Below are positions 1,950 to 6,104 of a stretch of DNA of 6,362 bases, one piece after another; within the stretch, counting starts at the first letter, position 1; each line of letters starts with the position of its first letter. Origin of the DNA: Gammaproteobacteria bacterium (GTDB taxonomy: Bacteria; Pseudomonadota; Gammaproteobacteria; SZUA-229); assembly GCA_013138755.1 (NCBI GenBank), contig WTCC01000113.1, positions 1 to 6,362 on the forward strand. Reading direction: 5' to 3'. The position numbers and the translations under genes are program-made. The notes under the pieces are model-generated. The model worked only from the letters and a program-made list of their open reading frames with translations, had not been told where the DNA came from and did not search any database.

Positions 1950-2044
1950 AAACCGCACGCCTCCGGAAAAATTTCGGGCCCGGCATACGACGCTCATGGG
2001 CGCTCCCTGTGGGGCAGAGATGGCAAGCCCGGGCGACTCAGATT
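1950..2044 (+). repeat. GC-rich structured direct repeat, copy 1
   Basis: This is the upstream copy of a pair flanking the HNH gene. Over the core 1958-2039 it aligns without gaps to 2566-2647, 608 bases downstream, with 64 of 82 identical positions. Best-kept blocks are AAAATTTCGGGC, CTCAT, GGGGCAGAGA, GGC-R-AGCC and GCGACTC. A hairpin GCTCC/GGGGC (2002-2006 with 2011-2015) has a T-G pair that becomes C-G in copy 2. The pair 1980/1998 changes from C-G to G-C. Bases 1921-2040 are 67% G+C against about 41% in the HNH gene. The 18 substitutions show no third-position bias (8, 4 and 6 by codon position in the overlapping open frame), so I read this as non-coding. The family is unknown to me. Confidence 0.8.
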
Positions 2045-2049
2045 ACACC

Positions 2050-2078
2050 TTGCCAACTATTATAAAAAATATTACTAT
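2050..2078 (+). promoter_or_regulatory. Sigma-70-like promoter for the HNH gene
   Basis: TTGCCA (2050-2055) matches the -35 consensus at five of six bases. After a 17-base spacer, TACTAT (2073-2078) matches the -10 at four of six. Transcription would start near 2085 and give an HNH leader of about 110 bases that contains the two hairpins. The promoter lies in the AT-rich DNA just downstream of repeat copy 1, so copy 1 would not be on this transcript. It is a sequence prediction only. Confidence 0.45.
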
Positions 2079-2111
2079 CTCTATGTGCTGATTCTTTAGG
2101 ACAGCTGTAGT

Positions 2112-2136
2112 GCCAGTCTGAATCTCTTCAACTGGT
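2112..2136 (+). other. Hairpin A in the HNH leader
   Basis: CCAGT (2113-2117) pairs with ACTGG (2131-2135). After a bulged C, TGAA pairs with TTCA and closes a TCTC tetraloop. A G-T pair (2112/2136) may extend it. It shares GG at 2134-2135 with the base of the next hairpin, so the two could compete or the shared pairs could switch. Confidence 0.5.
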
Positions 2137-2171
2137 TCCCAAGATTACGTTTTAACGTGTCTCGGGCAACC
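2134..2171 (+). other. Long hairpin B just upstream of the HNH gene
   Basis: GGTT/AACC at the base, CCC/GGG (one bulged C at 2167), AGA/TCT and ACGT/ACGT stack into one stem of fourteen Watson-Crick pairs plus a possible T-G pair, closed by a TTTA loop (2151-2154). It ends 12 bases before the GGAG ribosome-binding site. No T-run follows, so it is not a terminator. Its position suggests an mRNA leader structure (translation control or transcript stability) or part of a structured RNA linked to the nuclease gene. Confidence 0.6.
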
Positions 2172-2193
2172 TTAAATCTAGTTGGAGATACAT

Positions 2194-2544
2194 ATGAGTA
2201 AATCACGAAAACCCCTTAAATATCCCCGTTCTTTAGCATTCTCTCGTCAGAATGGTAATTGCTATTATTGCGGACTACCCATGTGGACTAATGACCCACA
2301 ATATTTCTCATCTAAATACAAGATTAGCGAAAAACAGGCAAAACACTTTAAGTGTACTGGAGAGCATCTGGTCGCACATCAACATGGTGGTAGTTCACAG
2401 CAAGACAATATTGTAGCGGCTTGTGAGTTTTGTAATCTACAGAGGCATAGGCGCAAATCTAATCCAAGTCCAACGCAATATAAAGATTTTGTTCAACAAC
2501 GCATGGATAAAGGTCGTTGGCATAACATTAGATTGGCAACTTAG
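2194..2544 (+). CDS. Small stand-alone HNH endonuclease, 116 aa
   Basis: This is a predicted metal-dependent DNA nuclease of the HNH/His-Me finger superfamily. Paired cysteines C23-x2-C26 and C77-x2-C80 look like a structural zinc site. The HNH core runs from E57-H58-L through H62, G65-G66 and N72 (DNIVAAC) to C80-N81 and H85. H58 is the likely general base, with N72 and H85 completing the motif. The C-terminus (FVQQRMDKGRWH) is basic and typical of this small HNH group. There is no target-recognition domain, helicase, methylase or transposase, so specificity is unknown. I chose ATG 2194 because GGAG at 2184-2187 is six bases upstream; a TTG at 2182 would swallow that site. The gene has its own promoter, a hairpin-rich leader and a GC-rich repeat on each side, which suggests mobility or a linked RNA. 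The nuclease fold is confident; the role is unknown. Confidence 0.9.
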   Translation: MSKSRKPLKYPRSLAFSRQNGNCYYCGLPMWTNDPQYFSSKYKISEKQAKHFKCTGEHLVAHQHGGSSQQDNIVAACEFCNLQRHRRKSNPSPTQYKDFVQQRMDKGRWHNIRLAT

Positions 2545-2557
2545 AAACCAGCCATAT

Positions 2558-2652
2558 AAATCACCCGCCTACGGGAAAATTTCGGGCGATGCATGTCACA
2601 CTCATCGGGGCCCGCTGAGGGGCAGAGACGGCGAGCCTGTGCGACTCGAGTT
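2558..2652 (+). repeat. GC-rich structured direct repeat, copy 2
   Basis: This downstream partner of the repeat at 1950-2044 lies in the same orientation and begins 13 bases after the HNH stop. It is 64% G+C over 2561-2650. Candidate pairings are CGATG/CATCG (2587-2591 with 2603-2607) and GCCC/GGGC (2610-2613 with 2620-2623), plus the short GGCGAGCC fold at 2630-2637. Similarity may resume further on at GGACAGCT (2680-2687), which recurs at 2099-2106 near copy 1. The segment between is of different length and AT-rich in both places. In both copies the AGC of this motif can pair with an upstream GCT. Confidence 0.8.
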
Positions 2653-2810: not shown

Positions 2811-3416
2811 CTAAATATCTAATCTAACATTCAACAATAACGCATCTACATCATCTCCAGTAGCATATCCAATACCAAAAGATACTTTTTCGTTAGCATA
2901 GAATCTTGCACCCAACCCAAATCTATTAAAGCTATCATCAAACACATCTGTATACGAAAAGCCCACATCAACCTCAATTGAGTTTGTCACCAAATGACGC
3001 AATCCAATCCCAGCAACAATTCCAGTATCATTTTCATCAAAAGATCGCGTATCACCAGTCACCTCAACCTTCGCTTTAAGTGCTGAAAAATTAGCAACCA
3101 CATCAGTTCCCACCGCAATTGGCGCATGAAGAGTTATACCTAATACAAACTCGGAGGTGTCGATATCAATACCCTGATAACTATCAAAACTTGTCGCATT
3201 AAAACCAGCGGTAATGGCAAGATTTTGAGTAATACCCAATGAACCAGAAATACCTAGCCCATCTCCATCAATATCACCATTTGGTAAACTTGAATCAGTA
3301 ACGGACGAATAAGCTCCCTGTATAAAATCGTAACTAATTTCTCTAGATATAACGCTTGATGATAATGGAAAAATCACTGCCATAAGGAGACCGTGTTGAA
3401 TAGTACGGTTGAACAT
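2811..3416 (-). CDS. Small outer-membrane beta-barrel protein, 201 aa
   Basis: This is a predicted exported barrel of the small porin-like type (OmpX/Ax21-like architecture). An N-terminal signal sequence (about residues 1-24) is followed by alternating polar and hydrophobic strands consistent with eight to ten antiparallel segments. Examples are GLGISGSLGI, NLAITAGFNA, SEFVLGITLHAP, TGIVAGIGLRHLV, IEVDVGFSYTDV, RFGLGARFYA and VSFGIGYATG. Residues 47-54 (NGDIDGDG) are an Asp-rich turn that could bind calcium. The protein ends in LLLNVRLDI, without the C-terminal Phe or Trp common in barrel substrates of the BAM machine. GGAG lies eight bases before the ATG. It is the last gene of the operon, 15 bases after its neighbour and just before the terminator. 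The barrel fold is likely; the cargo or partner is not known. Confidence 0.8.
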   Translation of the reverse strand: MFNRTIQHGLLMAVIFPLSSSVISREISYDFIQGAYSSVTDSSLPNGDIDGDGLGISGSLGITQNLAITAGFNATSFDSYQGIDIDTSEFVLGITLHAPIAVGTDVVANFSALKAKVEVTGDTRSFDENDTGIVAGIGLRHLVTNSIEVDVGFSYTDVFDDSFNRFGLGARFYANEKVSFGIGYATGDDVDALLLNVRLDI

Positions 3417-3431
3417 TATAGAAACTCCTAA

Positions 3432-3731
3432 TTATTTATTGAATACCCAGGTATCAGAATTATTAATATCTACAACGAACCAACCTTCTGAATAAACATC
3501 CGCCAAATTATTATAATTATGAGTATCTTGGGTAGATCGTTTCATACAGGTTAAAGACTTTTTTGAATAATTTTTATTTAAGACGGTCAAAACTTTACCT
3601 GCATGACAAACCATTTGGTCTTTTACTTGAGGCAAAGACTCCGCAGCAATGCCATTGAAACTCATCAACAAAACTATTGCAAAAATTAGACTTGTTGAAA
3701 CACGCGGCGCTTGGGAAAAAAATATTTTCAT
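3432..3731 (-). CDS. Small secreted two-cysteine protein, 99 aa
   Basis: I do not recognise the family. A signal peptide is clear: a basic start, a hydrophobic core at about residues 14-24 (SLIFAIVLLMS) and a likely signal peptidase I site after A30 (NGIAA, then E31). The mature part is about 69 residues with exactly two cysteines, C42 and C62, which could form one disulfide in the periplasm. The C-terminal half is aromatic and polar (EGWFVVDINNSDTWVF). There is no lipobox, unlike its upstream neighbours. The gene starts 20 bases after the DUF799 stop and has only a weak ribosome-binding site (TAAAG). It ends 15 bases before the barrel gene, so it probably belongs to the operon. A periplasmic accessory of the barrel or lipoproteins is inferred from position alone. 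Confidence 0.75.
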   Translation of the reverse strand: MKIFFSQAPRVSTSLIFAIVLLMSFNGIAAESLPQVKDQMVCHAGKVLTVLNKNYSKKSLTCMKRSTQDTHNYNNLADVYSEGWFVVDINNSDTWVFNK

Positions 3732-3751: not shown

Positions 3752-4423
3752 TCATTTCTTTTCAATATGACTTAGCTTAATACTCTGGTTCATGTCTTTA
3801 TCAAACATATTATTGTACTTACCATAGGGGACAGTCTTTAATGCTGCCTGATTAATTTTTATTGCAATGGGCACATAGTCTTGCATGGATGTAGCGACGG
3901 CCGTTGCAATAATGGCAGCCAGTAATCCACCGCCACCATCATCACCCGTATTCACAACCATTTCGCCCTTGTAATTCCACAAGGTCTCACCAGTTTTGCA
4001 CGATTTTATTTGATACTCGGTGCTCACCGTAACATTACCACCTATAATATAATAGTTAGTGTCCCATACCTCAATATTTACATAAAGAACAGCATCAGCA
4101 CCAAATGGTTCGGCAAATTTTTGTGGCGGTATATCCTTTAGAGATTCGCCATCTGTAAAACCTTCATTACGTAAAAAACGATCCGTTACTTCTATTGGCA
4201 AAACATAAAACCCAGCATTCGAAAGTGGTTCATTAATTGTAGAGGAATATAAAATAGGCGAATCAGCAGCCGTACTATGATTAATAGCCGGAATAACCAA
4301 AATAGCCACAGGCTTCTCATTATACATCTCAGGAAATTCTTGACCCTTGGTAGAATTCATAGAGCAGCCTGAAGCCAATAAAAATAAAATGCTAAACAAC
4401 AGCGGTAATAGTAATCTCATCAT
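3752..4423 (-). CDS. DUF799 (GNA1162-family) outer-membrane lipoprotein
   Basis: This 223-residue lipoprotein matches the DUF799/GNA1162 family, first noted as a Neisseria surface-antigen candidate and routinely found beside CsgG-like and DUF4810 genes. The signal peptide ends in the lipobox LASGC with C20. Ser at +2 predicts sorting to the outer membrane by Lol. Family-like segments are ILVIPAINHST (41-51), GADAVLYVNIEVWDTNY (108-124), EYQIKSCKTGETLWNYKG (136-153), a Gly-rich hydrophobic run GGGGLLAAIIATAVATSM (163-180) and VPYGKYN (198-204). Two adjacent ATG codons are possible starts. GAGG on the minus strand is four bases from the first and seven from the second, so 4420 may be the true start. 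The gene begins eight bases after the DUF4810 stop. Its biochemical activity is unknown. Confidence 0.9.
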   Translation of the reverse strand: MMRLLLPLLFSILFLLASGCSMNSTKGQEFPEMYNEKPVAILVIPAINHSTAADSPILYSSTINEPLSNAGFYVLPIEVTDRFLRNEGFTDGESLKDIPPQKFAEPFGADAVLYVNIEVWDTNYYIIGGNVTVSTEYQIKSCKTGETLWNYKGEMVVNTGDDGGGGLLAAIIATAVATSMQDYVPIAIKINQAALKTVPYGKYNNMFDKDMNQSIKLSHIEKK

Positions 4424-4431
4424 AGCCCCTC

Positions 4432-4785
4432 TTATGATTCGCTCAGTTTGTTTTTAAGCGTTTTTTGCATTAACGTTGCTCCTGCCGGATAAGTGTCTTG
4501 CTCCAACCCAAAATAACTCTGAGCTAAAGCAGTATCACCTCGCTCCATTGCGAATAACCCAAGTTCGGCATAAATACCCGGAGGTACTCTTAAATTCATT
4601 TCGGTTGATGTCTCCACAATCGATTGCAATTCTTTTTCATGCGCCAGATTAGATGCTTCACCAGGTTCTTTCTTAACCATGTAAAGCGTACTCGAATAGT
4701 TGCCCCAATAAAGATTGGACTGACTAACCTTCTTCACACAACCACTTAAAAACACCAACAATATTATAGAAAATACTACTCTCAC
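4432..4785 (-). CDS. DUF4810 outer-membrane lipoprotein, GTG start
   Basis: This 117-residue lipoprotein has a signal peptide ending in LVFLSGC (C16, Val at +2). The family features are LYWGNYSSTLY (25-35) and a TPR-like helical repeat, VPPGIYAELGLFAMERGD (68-85) with ALAQSYFGLEQDTYP following. TPR-like folds usually mediate protein contacts, so it may be the scaffold or adaptor of the lipoprotein set. The start is GTG at 4785-4783. It overlaps the upstream stop by four bases (GTGA), and GAGG at 4796-4793 lies seven bases upstream, so translation is probably coupled. DUF4810 genes are typically found between CsgG-like and DUF799 genes, as here. The domain call is strong; the function is not known. 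Confidence 0.9.
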   Translation of the reverse strand: MRVVFSIILLVFLSGCVKKVSQSNLYWGNYSSTLYMVKKEPGEASNLAHEKELQSIVETSTEMNLRVPPGIYAELGLFAMERGDTALAQSYFGLEQDTYPAGATLMQKTLKNKLSES

Positions 4786-5099
4786 AATTGCACCTCAAAT
4801 GACGTTCCAGTTGAAACATAAAATTTACGATTCACAGTAAGCACTCCACCCTTTGTGATTTTTACTGTATGCGAACCAATTGACACTTCTATTTTGGTGG
4901 CTGTTTTTCCGTTTAAATCATATGACGTTGTTTCTTGGGCAAGATCGATTGGCTTGTTGTTATCAATAGTAACAACGTTATTCATAGGATCTCCTATCAA
5001 TAACAAATAAGCCTTGTCATCCACCAGCACAGACTGGCGATAAGTCCCGCAGCTCGTTAGCATAAATAACGCCATAATAATTATTAAAAGTTTCTTCAT
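4782..5099 (-). CDS. Small PEGA-like outer-membrane lipoprotein, 105 aa
   Basis: The signal peptide (MKKLLIIIMALF) ends in the lipobox MLTSC with C17 and Gly at +2. The mature part is all-beta in appearance. Its second half (IEVSIGSHTVKITKGG, then FYVSTGTSFEVQL) has the spacing of PEGA-like surface or peptidoglycan-linked beta domains (G-x-H-x-V followed by a terminal beta-strand), a similarity I judge by eye. I prefer the ATG at 5099 to one at 5126. GAGG at 5111-5108 lies eight bases upstream, the signal peptide then has normal length, and the longer form would overlap the csgG-like gene by 17 bases. It sits 10 bases after that gene and overlaps the DUF4810 start. Its role is probably a cofactor of the CsgG-like protein. 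Confidence 0.82.
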   Translation of the reverse strand: MKKLLIIIMALFMLTSCGTYRQSVLVDDKAYLLLIGDPMNNVVTIDNNKPIDLAQETTSYDLNGKTATKIEVSIGSHTVKITKGGVLTVNRKFYVSTGTSFEVQL

Positions 5100-5109
5100 A
5101 AATACGACC

Positions 5110-6051
5110 TCATAATTCCTGAACAATCAGTTGATCATTTTTAACACCTTTAACACTACCCGAGGTTAGACGGCAAATAGACACCTCGTTGTTGCCATTA
5201 CCAGTAAAGGACGTTACTTTGAGCTTGGCAACTTCTTCTCTTGGTAGCTCAATCTCGAGACCTGTTTGTGGGTTTTTTACCACCCGACCGCGCTTCATTA
5301 CTTTAAACTCGTCACCTATTTCTAACCCTTGCGATTTACCACCGGACACAATAACCTGCCCTTGCTGCACATCAAGTATGTATGCAACCCAAGGTTTATC
5401 TAATAGGTTCTCTATCAAGTTACTGACTAATTTAGAAATAGCTGCGGATAATGCTTCATCATCCAGTTTGGAGTCATAACCAGCCGATTCGCCAACACCA
5501 AAAACACGGTTTGCCTCTGACAAGGCCTCACCACTTCCTTCTTGCGAGAAAACAATTTGGCCAGTTGTTACATCTACTAAACGAACATTCACTGTTGCAT
5601 TAGCTCTTTGTTTCTTATTACGGCTAAACACACCGACTTCACTAGTAGTCGTACGTCCAAACTCAGAAACTGAACCGATAATAAGATAGTCCGCACCAAC
5701 CGTTTTCGGTGTGATATTCGCTAAATCCTGTTCGGCTTTAATTTTGTCCAAGTCTTGTCGTTCTAACATCAAAAACTTACCCGATTCAGTCAAACGCGCA
5801 GCCAAAATATCACTTGCTTGCTTACCAATTCGGTCATTGCTTTCATCTAGAAGAAAAGAATTACCATGCTTTGTTTCGTTACTGAATCGTGCAATTACTA
5901 CTTTACGCTTTAAACTTTTAACATCTTCAGCAACTATGGTCTTACTAATTTGTGGTTGTGCATCAGGCTTATGAACAGCCTCTATCGTCGAAGTGGAGCA
6001 CCCGCTTATGAGTACAGAGAAGAGAACAAGTATTGCAGCAGTCCTAATCAA
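5110..6051 (-). CDS. CsgG/HfaB-family outer-membrane lipoprotein with extra C-terminal domain
   Basis: CsgG proteins form outer-membrane secretion channels; curli CsgG exports curlin, and HfaB serves holdfast anchoring. This one has 313 residues. The lipobox is LISGC (C18, Ser at +2). The CsgG domain follows, with VVIARFSNET (51-60), the hallmark FLMLERQDLDKIKAEQDL (93-110) and ADYLIIGSVSEFG (120-132). Candidate membrane hairpins lie at about 133-169 and 170-200, where ATVNVRLVDVTTGQIVFS (152-169) is typical. Residues 222-313 are an added beta-rich domain (QGQVIVSGGKSQGLEIGD...NPQTGLEI) that resembles FlgT C-terminal-like domains. The start is TTG; AGGAG at 6062-6058 lies six bases upstream and no in-frame ATG competes. 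It is the first gene of the six-gene operon. No csgA, csgB, csgE or csgF gene is present, so curlin is unlikely to be its cargo. Confidence 0.92.
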   Translation of the reverse strand: MIRTAAILVLFSVLISGCSTSTIEAVHKPDAQPQISKTIVAEDVKSLKRKVVIARFSNETKHGNSFLLDESNDRIGKQASDILAARLTESGKFLMLERQDLDKIKAEQDLANITPKTVGADYLIIGSVSEFGRTTTSEVGVFSRNKKQRANATVNVRLVDVTTGQIVFSQEGSGEALSEANRVFGVGESAGYDSKLDDEALSAAISKLVSNLIENLLDKPWVAYILDVQQGQVIVSGGKSQGLEIGDEFKVMKRGRVVKNPQTGLEIELPREEVAKLKVTSFTGNGNNEVSICRLTSGSVKGVKNDQLIVQEL

Positions 6052-6057
6052 TTTTAT

Positions 6058-6062
6058 CTCCT
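6058..6062 (-). promoter_or_regulatory. Ribosome-binding site deciding the TTG start
   Basis: AGGAG on the minus strand lies six bases (ATAAAA) before the TTG at 6051-6049. It is a strong site at ideal spacing, which makes the rare TTG the best start of the CsgG-like gene. Confidence 0.8.
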
Positions 6063-6077
6063 ATTTATACAGTTATA

Positions 6078-6104
6078 TTTATAATTTTTCGCAGTAGAAC
6101 ACAA
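6078..6104 (-). promoter_or_regulatory. Weak candidate promoter of the lipoprotein operon
   Basis: On the minus strand TTGTGT (6104-6099) and TATAAA (6083-6078) resemble -35 and -10 boxes, but the 15-base spacer is short. The region is very AT-rich, so other -10 choices exist. The promoter should lie between about 6060 and 6140, because no closer gene could supply read-through. Confidence 0.25.

Follow-up and report, generated by a model that had tools for sequence, protein, structure and literature searches.

The window, by which we mean the whole 6,362-nt stretch analysed here (contig WTCC01000113.1 of a gammaproteobacterial genome assembly), carries on its forward strand a small HNH endonuclease gene at 2194-2544 (ATG at 2194, stop codon TAG at 2542-2544), which encodes 116 amino acids and holds its nuclease domain in a free-standing intergenic gene. 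The assignment, already made in the earlier note on this DNA, is borne out by a match to the Pfam HNH family (5.9e-6, 26.8 bits vs a cut-off of 21.4), by invariant residues and by structure comparison. Across 53 homologues the two zinc-binding CxxC pairs (C23, C26, C77, C80), E57 and H58, N72 and N81 are invariant, and the AlphaFold model is confident (pLDDT 89.7, pTM 0.80). The nearest solved structure, by sequence (1.8e-6) as well as by fold (9.1e-4), is the Gme HNH nicking endonuclease Gmet_0936 (4h9d), for which the accessible part of PMC3765158 reports Mn-dependent DNA nicking, mostly for the N77H variant, and mentions no leader RNA. Both proteins combine a zinc ribbon, here with the four cysteines named above, with an HNH site, and nicking by the window protein is predicted; identity is 21-23% and TM-scores lie at 0.38-0.56. 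In Pfam, every family matched was HNH or a related nuclease and RuvC was absent, in keeping with the remark in the earlier note that the protein lacks the other domains of IscB. The best NCBIfam protein match was the HNH part of IscB (9.2e-5, 21.7 bits vs a cut-off of 175), and one endonuclease VII PHROG matched at 1.2e-5.

Relatives of the HNH protein were collected from proteins (11 at E <= 1e-3, the window's own included), from genome contigs (the best 80 of 176 were used) and from viral contigs (51). A single-protein search of the genome contigs gave no relative; the alignment-based search of them succeeded. Matches were present in 3 of 369 genomes of the class, the window's included, and among plasmid and phage records 13 plasmids and no phage record had a relative. 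No constant neighbour gene was seen at 45 loci, where the scanned neighbouring reading frames (122 of 172) belonged to diverse families. In the window, the minus strand at 3752-6051 holds a predicted lipoprotein-like gene cluster (CsgG, DUF4810 and GNA1162-like families) that looks like one envelope or secretion operon.

The gene is enclosed by two GC-rich copies of a direct repeat, at 1950-2039 and 2558-2647, which lie in the same orientation with a spacing of 608 and align without gaps (69 of 90 bases identical, 64 of 82 for 1958-2039 vs 2566-2647); a whole-genome search recovered the pair at E 4.5e-13. The right copy begins 13 bases past the stop codon, and the copies have a G+C content of 0.66 and 0.62, vs 0.39 for the stretch between them and 0.40 for the whole window. 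In all these respects, including orientation, coordinates and core identity, the description in the earlier note was reproduced. Its term "structured" was not borne out: the 96-nt copies folded no better than dinucleotide shuffles on either strand, as RNA or as DNA (z -0.84 to +1.58), and longer pieces gave z -1.62 (138-nt left) and +1.36 (126-nt right). Pair support was likewise unconvincing, with two-sided changes at 2 of 22 predicted pairs and an unfavourable covariation term, and for want of a fold signal and of convincing pairs the repeats were rejected as structured RNA. The 608-bp spacing had also brought to mind an integron cassette. Such cassettes are flanked by attC sites that fold into a one-strand hairpin; the DNA of the repeats folds no better than shuffles on either strand and shows no attC motif by eye, and the candidate was rejected.

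A related genome of the family (G015) contains the full-length element in one piece, left part-core-right part, without HNH, whereas the window has the layout left part-core-unit-core-right part. Read against this single full-length element of one relative (locus L004), the left window copy, made of left part and core, extends over 1854-2039 on the forward strand (71% identity to L004 1396-1580) and the right copy, made of core and right part, over 2558-2688 on the same strand (2565-2688 being 69% identical to L004 1498-1621). A search of the window's own genome, a draft of 2.1 Mb that is 73% complete, gave just these two copies, and a DNA search of 54 family genomes added only that of G015. 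The sequence-only model R1, built from three cores, adds copies in G010 (5.6e-9) and G050 (1.6e-5) and a doubtful one in G008 (0.026). Because the window's genome is the only one of the 54 with an HNH homologue at E <= 1e-5, the copies of G015, G010 and, more weakly, G050 stand without HNH. Conversely, R1 gave no core at E <= 0.05 when run on 80 further HNH loci (a match in L055, with E 0.09, is at chance level), the 51 viral HNH loci, compared by blastn only, gave nothing but short matches of 20-26 bases, and plasmid and phage records gave no match to the repeat. The readings offered in the earlier note, a cassette, a homing-type element whose nuclease acts at repeat copies and a nuclease with a linked RNA, were all built on the repeats, and the results that it named as refuting them were obtained at least partly: HNH homologues lack the repeat (80 loci by model, 51 viral loci by blastn), and G015, G010 and, more weakly, G050 have it with no HNH homologue.

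Being flanked by direct repeats is no peculiarity of the HNH units. Direct repeats lie on both sides within 800 bp at 5 of 51 HNH units, the window being one of the five, vs 11 of 86 free-standing small genes of HNH-bearing loci, several of them from related prophages (p 0.78); an apparent enrichment against arbitrary positions (1 of 259) vanished with these matched controls. That the repeats belong to the nuclease element, as cassette ends, a target-site duplication or nuclease targets, is therefore something to which we give very little credence. The split layout in the window, set against the one-piece G015 element without HNH, is what an insertion duplicating the core would leave, and an old insertion of that kind would also fit. 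The core is nevertheless missing by model from all 80 other HNH loci, copies occur in genomes without an HNH homologue, the two window copies are only 77% alike, and other small genes are flanked as often; on the first and last of these observations the repeats were rejected as cassette ends. Since HNH loci lack the core, copies occur without HNH and flanking repeats are equally common elsewhere, the repeats likely lie outside the nuclease system and are best read as a lineage-specific intergenic repeat where the HNH unit happens to sit. Three observations concern the surroundings of the element. Positions 361-384 of the window (24 bases, CCAACTGGTGCTGACGGGGTACA and one base more) recur unchanged in G015, at a distance of about 120 bases from the GC-rich element there; G015 has a second copy with one mismatch, and the remaining 16 genomes of the genus gave no copy at <=2 mismatches. 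In G050 the element follows an apparent tyrosine integrase gene, as judged by eye (L145 50-1226 and 1430-1620), and the G010 copy has a tRNA-like remnant nearby (L144 1200-1560).

Reading the bases before the start codons of HNH relatives revealed a common leader. In the window, a conserved leader RNA of about 110 nt lies immediately 5' of the HNH start, at about 2085-2193 on the forward strand, and is predicted to form three hairpins: H0 (2087-2105), a stem with one bulged base and a tetraloop, drawn by eye, which most relatives have at this position too; H1 (2112-2136), a bulged stem GCCAGU[C]UGAA/UUCAACUGGU; and H2 (2138-2166), CCC..GGG with an inner stem. A weak promoter-like site on the same strand, TTGCCA-17-TACTAT at 2050-2078, lies just 5' of the leader in a position that suits the leader 5' end, although such sites are at chance level in the region (4 found vs 3.0 expected). 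A simple hairpin pattern was present in 88 of 138 leaders, in some of them by chance. Across 40 leaders H0 folds with a mean z of -1.90 vs -0.18 in a control region (p 1.9e-8), and the window's own H0 is weak (z -0.81).

Covariation was scored on two alignments. Of 51 leaders cut out, 36 were aligned, and the 21 of near-equal hairpin length formed the seed, in which 86.7% of the cells of three helices are paired, vs 79.8% in shuffled and 30-48% in slid alignments. Two-sided changes occur at 10 of 19 seed pairs (matched by 18 of 500 shuffles); no shuffle in 500 was as good for the covariation score or for the two-sided-change cells, and 117 of 500 were for pair types, so that, judged by the seed only, two covariation measures out of five (pair types, and pairs with two-sided change) do not stand out well from the shuffles. 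The model R2 matches the window, itself a seed member, at 2105-2171 (E 3.6e-14), and its 58 matches (56 distinct rows) were aligned by fitting to the model, with the seed rows included. In this larger alignment 89.0% of the cells are paired, two-sided changes reach 15 of 19 pairs, and there are 130 two-sided cells vs 38.9 in shuffles (0 of 500 as good) and no more than 37 in slid alignments. Of the helix 3 cells, only 72% are paired. An alignment-free comparison gave a mean fold z of -1.98 for 121 HNH leaders vs -0.38 for 220 control leaders (p 2.7e-20), with -2.67 for the window. The alignments thus show the predicted H1 and H2, each supported by the R2 match, to be a conserved structure with strong covariation across Proteobacteria.

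No Rfam family, HEARO included, matched the window at E <= 5, and none matched at the leader in nine homologous loci; the earlier note had singled out the HEARO model as one to try. A description of the leader RNA was not found in the literature searched; a larger 2017 catalogue of candidate RNAs was not among the papers found, and a description there is possible. "HNH" does not occur in the main text of the 104-RNA paper (PMC2864571) as far as that text is accessible. The idea of a nuclease with a linked RNA, also raised in the earlier note, has thus moved: the repeats hold no such RNA, and the 5' leader of the gene does. Alphaproteobacterial and phage HNH relatives (L084, L103, L104, L107-L109, L117, L119 and similar) have a different common leader, also hairpin-rich by eye, of the pattern GCGCGAGC...GCTTCC...GGGGAGCG...ATTCGCTTC...GAAGT(C/T)GAAT.

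Leader and gene are closely linked. At E <= 1e-3, R2 gave 53 matches in 52 of 82 sources, the window and L005 being the same place, all of them on the HNH strand and at most about 200 nt upstream of the start; the other 30 sources had no match at this threshold. Of 55 further sources, 5 matched at E <= 1e-3, including one that records the L013 place a second time. Whole genomes were then scored for their best candidates only (150 per genome in 34 carriers, 14 in 369 genomes of the class, 13 in 399 genomes of the Cupriavidus order), so that further copies may be missed. The 34 carriers, picked for carrying the leader and HNH pair, gave 41 matches at E <= 0.01; all 38 of at least 28 bits precede an HNH gene, and three of 19.7-21.4 bits stand without one. 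The 38 include a second leader copy of Cupriavidus laharis with its own HNH gene (L195) and the second of two tandem leaders in L029. In the class, both strong matches proved to be leaders of HNH genes, and the four at 22-23 bits lack HNH. In the Cupriavidus order all five matches of at least 44 bits precede an HNH gene; five more scored 22-26 bits, and of these L212 is followed by an HNH fragment, L214 has an HNH gene on the other side and three have none. Among the genomes searched, strong leader copies occur only in front of HNH genes. The spacing and number of the RNAs vary: the distance from match to start is about 130 nt in L022, L036 and L051 and about 80 nt in L049 and L068, and L029 (3766-3953) has tandem leader RNAs ahead of one HNH gene. 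At L028 the HNH leader is preceded, at a distance of about 170 bases, by a CRISPR array (3020-3708) that matches CRISPR-DR4 12 times.

Together the promoter-like site, the leader and the HNH gene make up a unit of about 0.5 kb. Related bacteria have it at differing sites, and comparison of these loci makes it likely mobile. The L080 gene of a Cupriavidus genome was used with its surroundings as a 2.1-kb query against 40 genomes, that genome among them. Away from L080 itself, matches covered no more than the unit or a part of it: about 480-560 bp in G443, in G470 and at a second site of G452, and about 170 bp in G457. What the Cupriavidus genome has in common with three of 39 relatives, and with its own second site, is thus the unit only. 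Within the window's family, an HNH homologue occurs in 1 of 54 genomes, which also speaks for mobility. Shared blocks measure 480-690 bp among seven loci from Cupriavidus and one near relative, which have one extra 91-bp piece that overlaps a tRNA gene; six Methylotenera-like loci have common blocks of 364-787 bp, reaching about 300 bp past the stop, and a few further pieces of 49-156 bp. In these two groups of relatives, alignment shows 0.4-0.8 kb in common between units and no common flanks, and the window unit, from promoter-like site to stop (2050-2544), fits the size of the common blocks. Some loci have kilobases of context in common (L016, L087 and L088; L077 and L079; L060 and L067). 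Because no empty site was found, the case for mobility is built on the differing flanks. Beside the uspE-like gene, the four relatives examined lack the HNH unit and have unlike neighbours, and hence offer no orthologous site, and a Methylomonas prophage (L206) was rejected as an empty site, as it shows an apparent deletion that truncates the HNH gene. On this prophage-like contig the leader and the first approximately 47 HNH codons are apparently deleted at about 6054-6099.

The mobile cassette proposed in the earlier note is retained in part: the repeats are probably not its ends, and the HNH unit itself behaves as a compact mobile unit. It would spread like free-standing homing genes, the target being nicked and the unit copied in by repair, and in the window it is flanked by two copies of a GC-rich intergenic repeat that likely has nothing to do with it. 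Apparent 3' halves of tRNA genes, seen by eye, mark the end of Methylotenera-like units about 200-300 nt past the HNH stop (L030, L035, L047, L054, L058), and a Marinobacter unit (L015 3675-3723 and 5422-5470) has a tRNA-Phe half on both sides, one copy inside an intact tRNA-Phe; these halves are possible attachment sites.

The window leader folds better than nearly all shuffles (z -3.22, 1 of 200 equally good), and its most stable predicted fold lacks H1: the loop end and 3' arm of that hairpin (2125-2135) pair instead with the Shine-Dalgarno (SD) region (2178-2188, forward strand, with GGAG at 2184-2187) in a helix of 11 pairs and -13.8 kcal/mol, the predicted OFF state. The same alternative is predicted in relatives with different letters. 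For 38 leaders, a set with two misplaced arms, pairing of the arm with its own SD region averages -7.6 kcal/mol vs -5.64 (sd 0.31) with permuted partners, and for the 30 left after near relatives were dropped it averages -8.25 vs -5.96 (sd 0.37) with swapped partners, none of 20,000 permutations being as low, and -5.73 with reversed downstream pieces. A value of -9 kcal/mol is reached by 15 of the 30, the window's leader included, but also by 18% of the swapped pairings and by 7 of the 30 with reversed pieces, and several leaders have nearly no such helix (L029 -0.5; L037 and L065 -0.7). The calculations thus show a predicted alternative SD helix to be common among leaders, in about half of them, and not universal; others may hide the SD in a local hairpin. 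Predicted unpaired probability of the SD is 0.21 in 33 HNH leaders vs 0.44 in 83 controls with a recognisable SD (p 1.6e-6), and that of the start codon 0.41 vs 0.50 (p 0.06).

On balance we favour, with some reserve, a reading in which the leader works as a translational switch with two states and the 0.5-kb unit as a whole moves between bacterial genomes. In the OFF state, the 3' arm of H1 would pair with the SD region and block the ribosome from starting; in the ON state, H1 would form and leave the start free. The trigger might be negative feedback, a guess that we hold weakly, with the HNH protein binding the bulged hairpins and favouring OFF, and such autoregulation would keep a self-spreading nuclease scarce. 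A simpler account, in which the leader is a static repressor that only hides the ribosome-binding site and has no regulated second state, seems to us unlikely, though worth serious thought. The unusually paired SD region suits it, and so do the RNA structures hiding the ribosome-binding site that are described for I-TevI, I-TevII, I-TevIII, segB and the HNH gene mobE in the accessible part of PMC2988022. Mere hiding, however, has no need of H1 and H2 covarying as a conserved structure over such distances, and H1 and the SD helix are mutually exclusive in the window.

Among known systems, free-standing homing genes whose start site is hidden in RNA come closest. The free-standing HNH homing genes of T-even phages (mob genes such as mobE) are intergenic and have their ribosome-binding site hidden by RNA structure, according to the same part of PMC2988022. 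The units described here resemble them in having the nuclease domain in a free-standing intergenic gene and, by prediction only, a ribosome-binding site hidden in RNA structure. Unlike the mob genes, they have bacterial and prophage carriers, a protein of only 116 aa and a multi-hairpin leader whose covarying core is conserved across Proteobacteria.

A second comparison is with HEARO/IscB, where a structured omega RNA goes with an HNH gene (PMC9755519, accessible part), a layout repeated here. The leader might likewise be processed out and serve the small HNH protein in trans, as its partner or its guide, which we consider improbable. In favour of this, an RNA that is strongly structured and strictly linked precedes the HNH gene within a likely mobile unit, and the best NCBIfam protein match, below cut-off, is the HNH part of IscB. 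Against this, the protein has neither RuvC nor any other further domain, the RNA has no HEARO or other Rfam match, and the leader, unlike omega RNA, continues into the SD and start codon. The guide segment of HEARO/IscB comes from DNA outside the element; here, the conserved part reaches the 5' hairpin H0 beside the promoter-like site, and no obvious variable segment is visible by eye. The defining features of HEARO/IscB that we looked for, RuvC and HNH in one protein and a match to the HEARO model, are absent.

The leader could also act as DNA, with the nuclease recognising its hairpins in the form of cruciforms or sites to nick. The hairpins are palindromic, structured DNA is a substrate of EndoVII-like HNH enzymes, and there is the endonuclease VII PHROG match already noted. 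The conserved stems nonetheless contain many G-U pairs (at the outermost H1 pair, 48 of 54), which would be meaningless in DNA, and complementarity to the SD belongs to mRNA; we regard this reading as most improbable. An extension of the leader's role is that it also forms the RNA half of a minimal ribonucleoprotein, bound by the 116-residue HNH nuclease, which is thereby steered or held inactive. We offer this as a speculation with little expectation that it is right, though if true the units, which have no transposase of their own, would rank with the smallest known mobile units made of a nuclease and an RNA.

The repeat pair that first drew attention to the window is real but beside the point; what matters is a conserved leader RNA tied to small, likely mobile HNH genes. 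Very small HNH nucleases, likely mobile and spread over many Proteobacteria and prophages, thereby turn out to be tied to a structured RNA that lies outside the Rfam models. This offers a testable link between homing genes that hide their ribosome-binding site and RNA-associated HNH systems. If the two-state switch is right, these units would set their own dose by an RNA device within a 0.5-kb package, and would provide a simple model for how selfish nucleases may be kept from harming their hosts.
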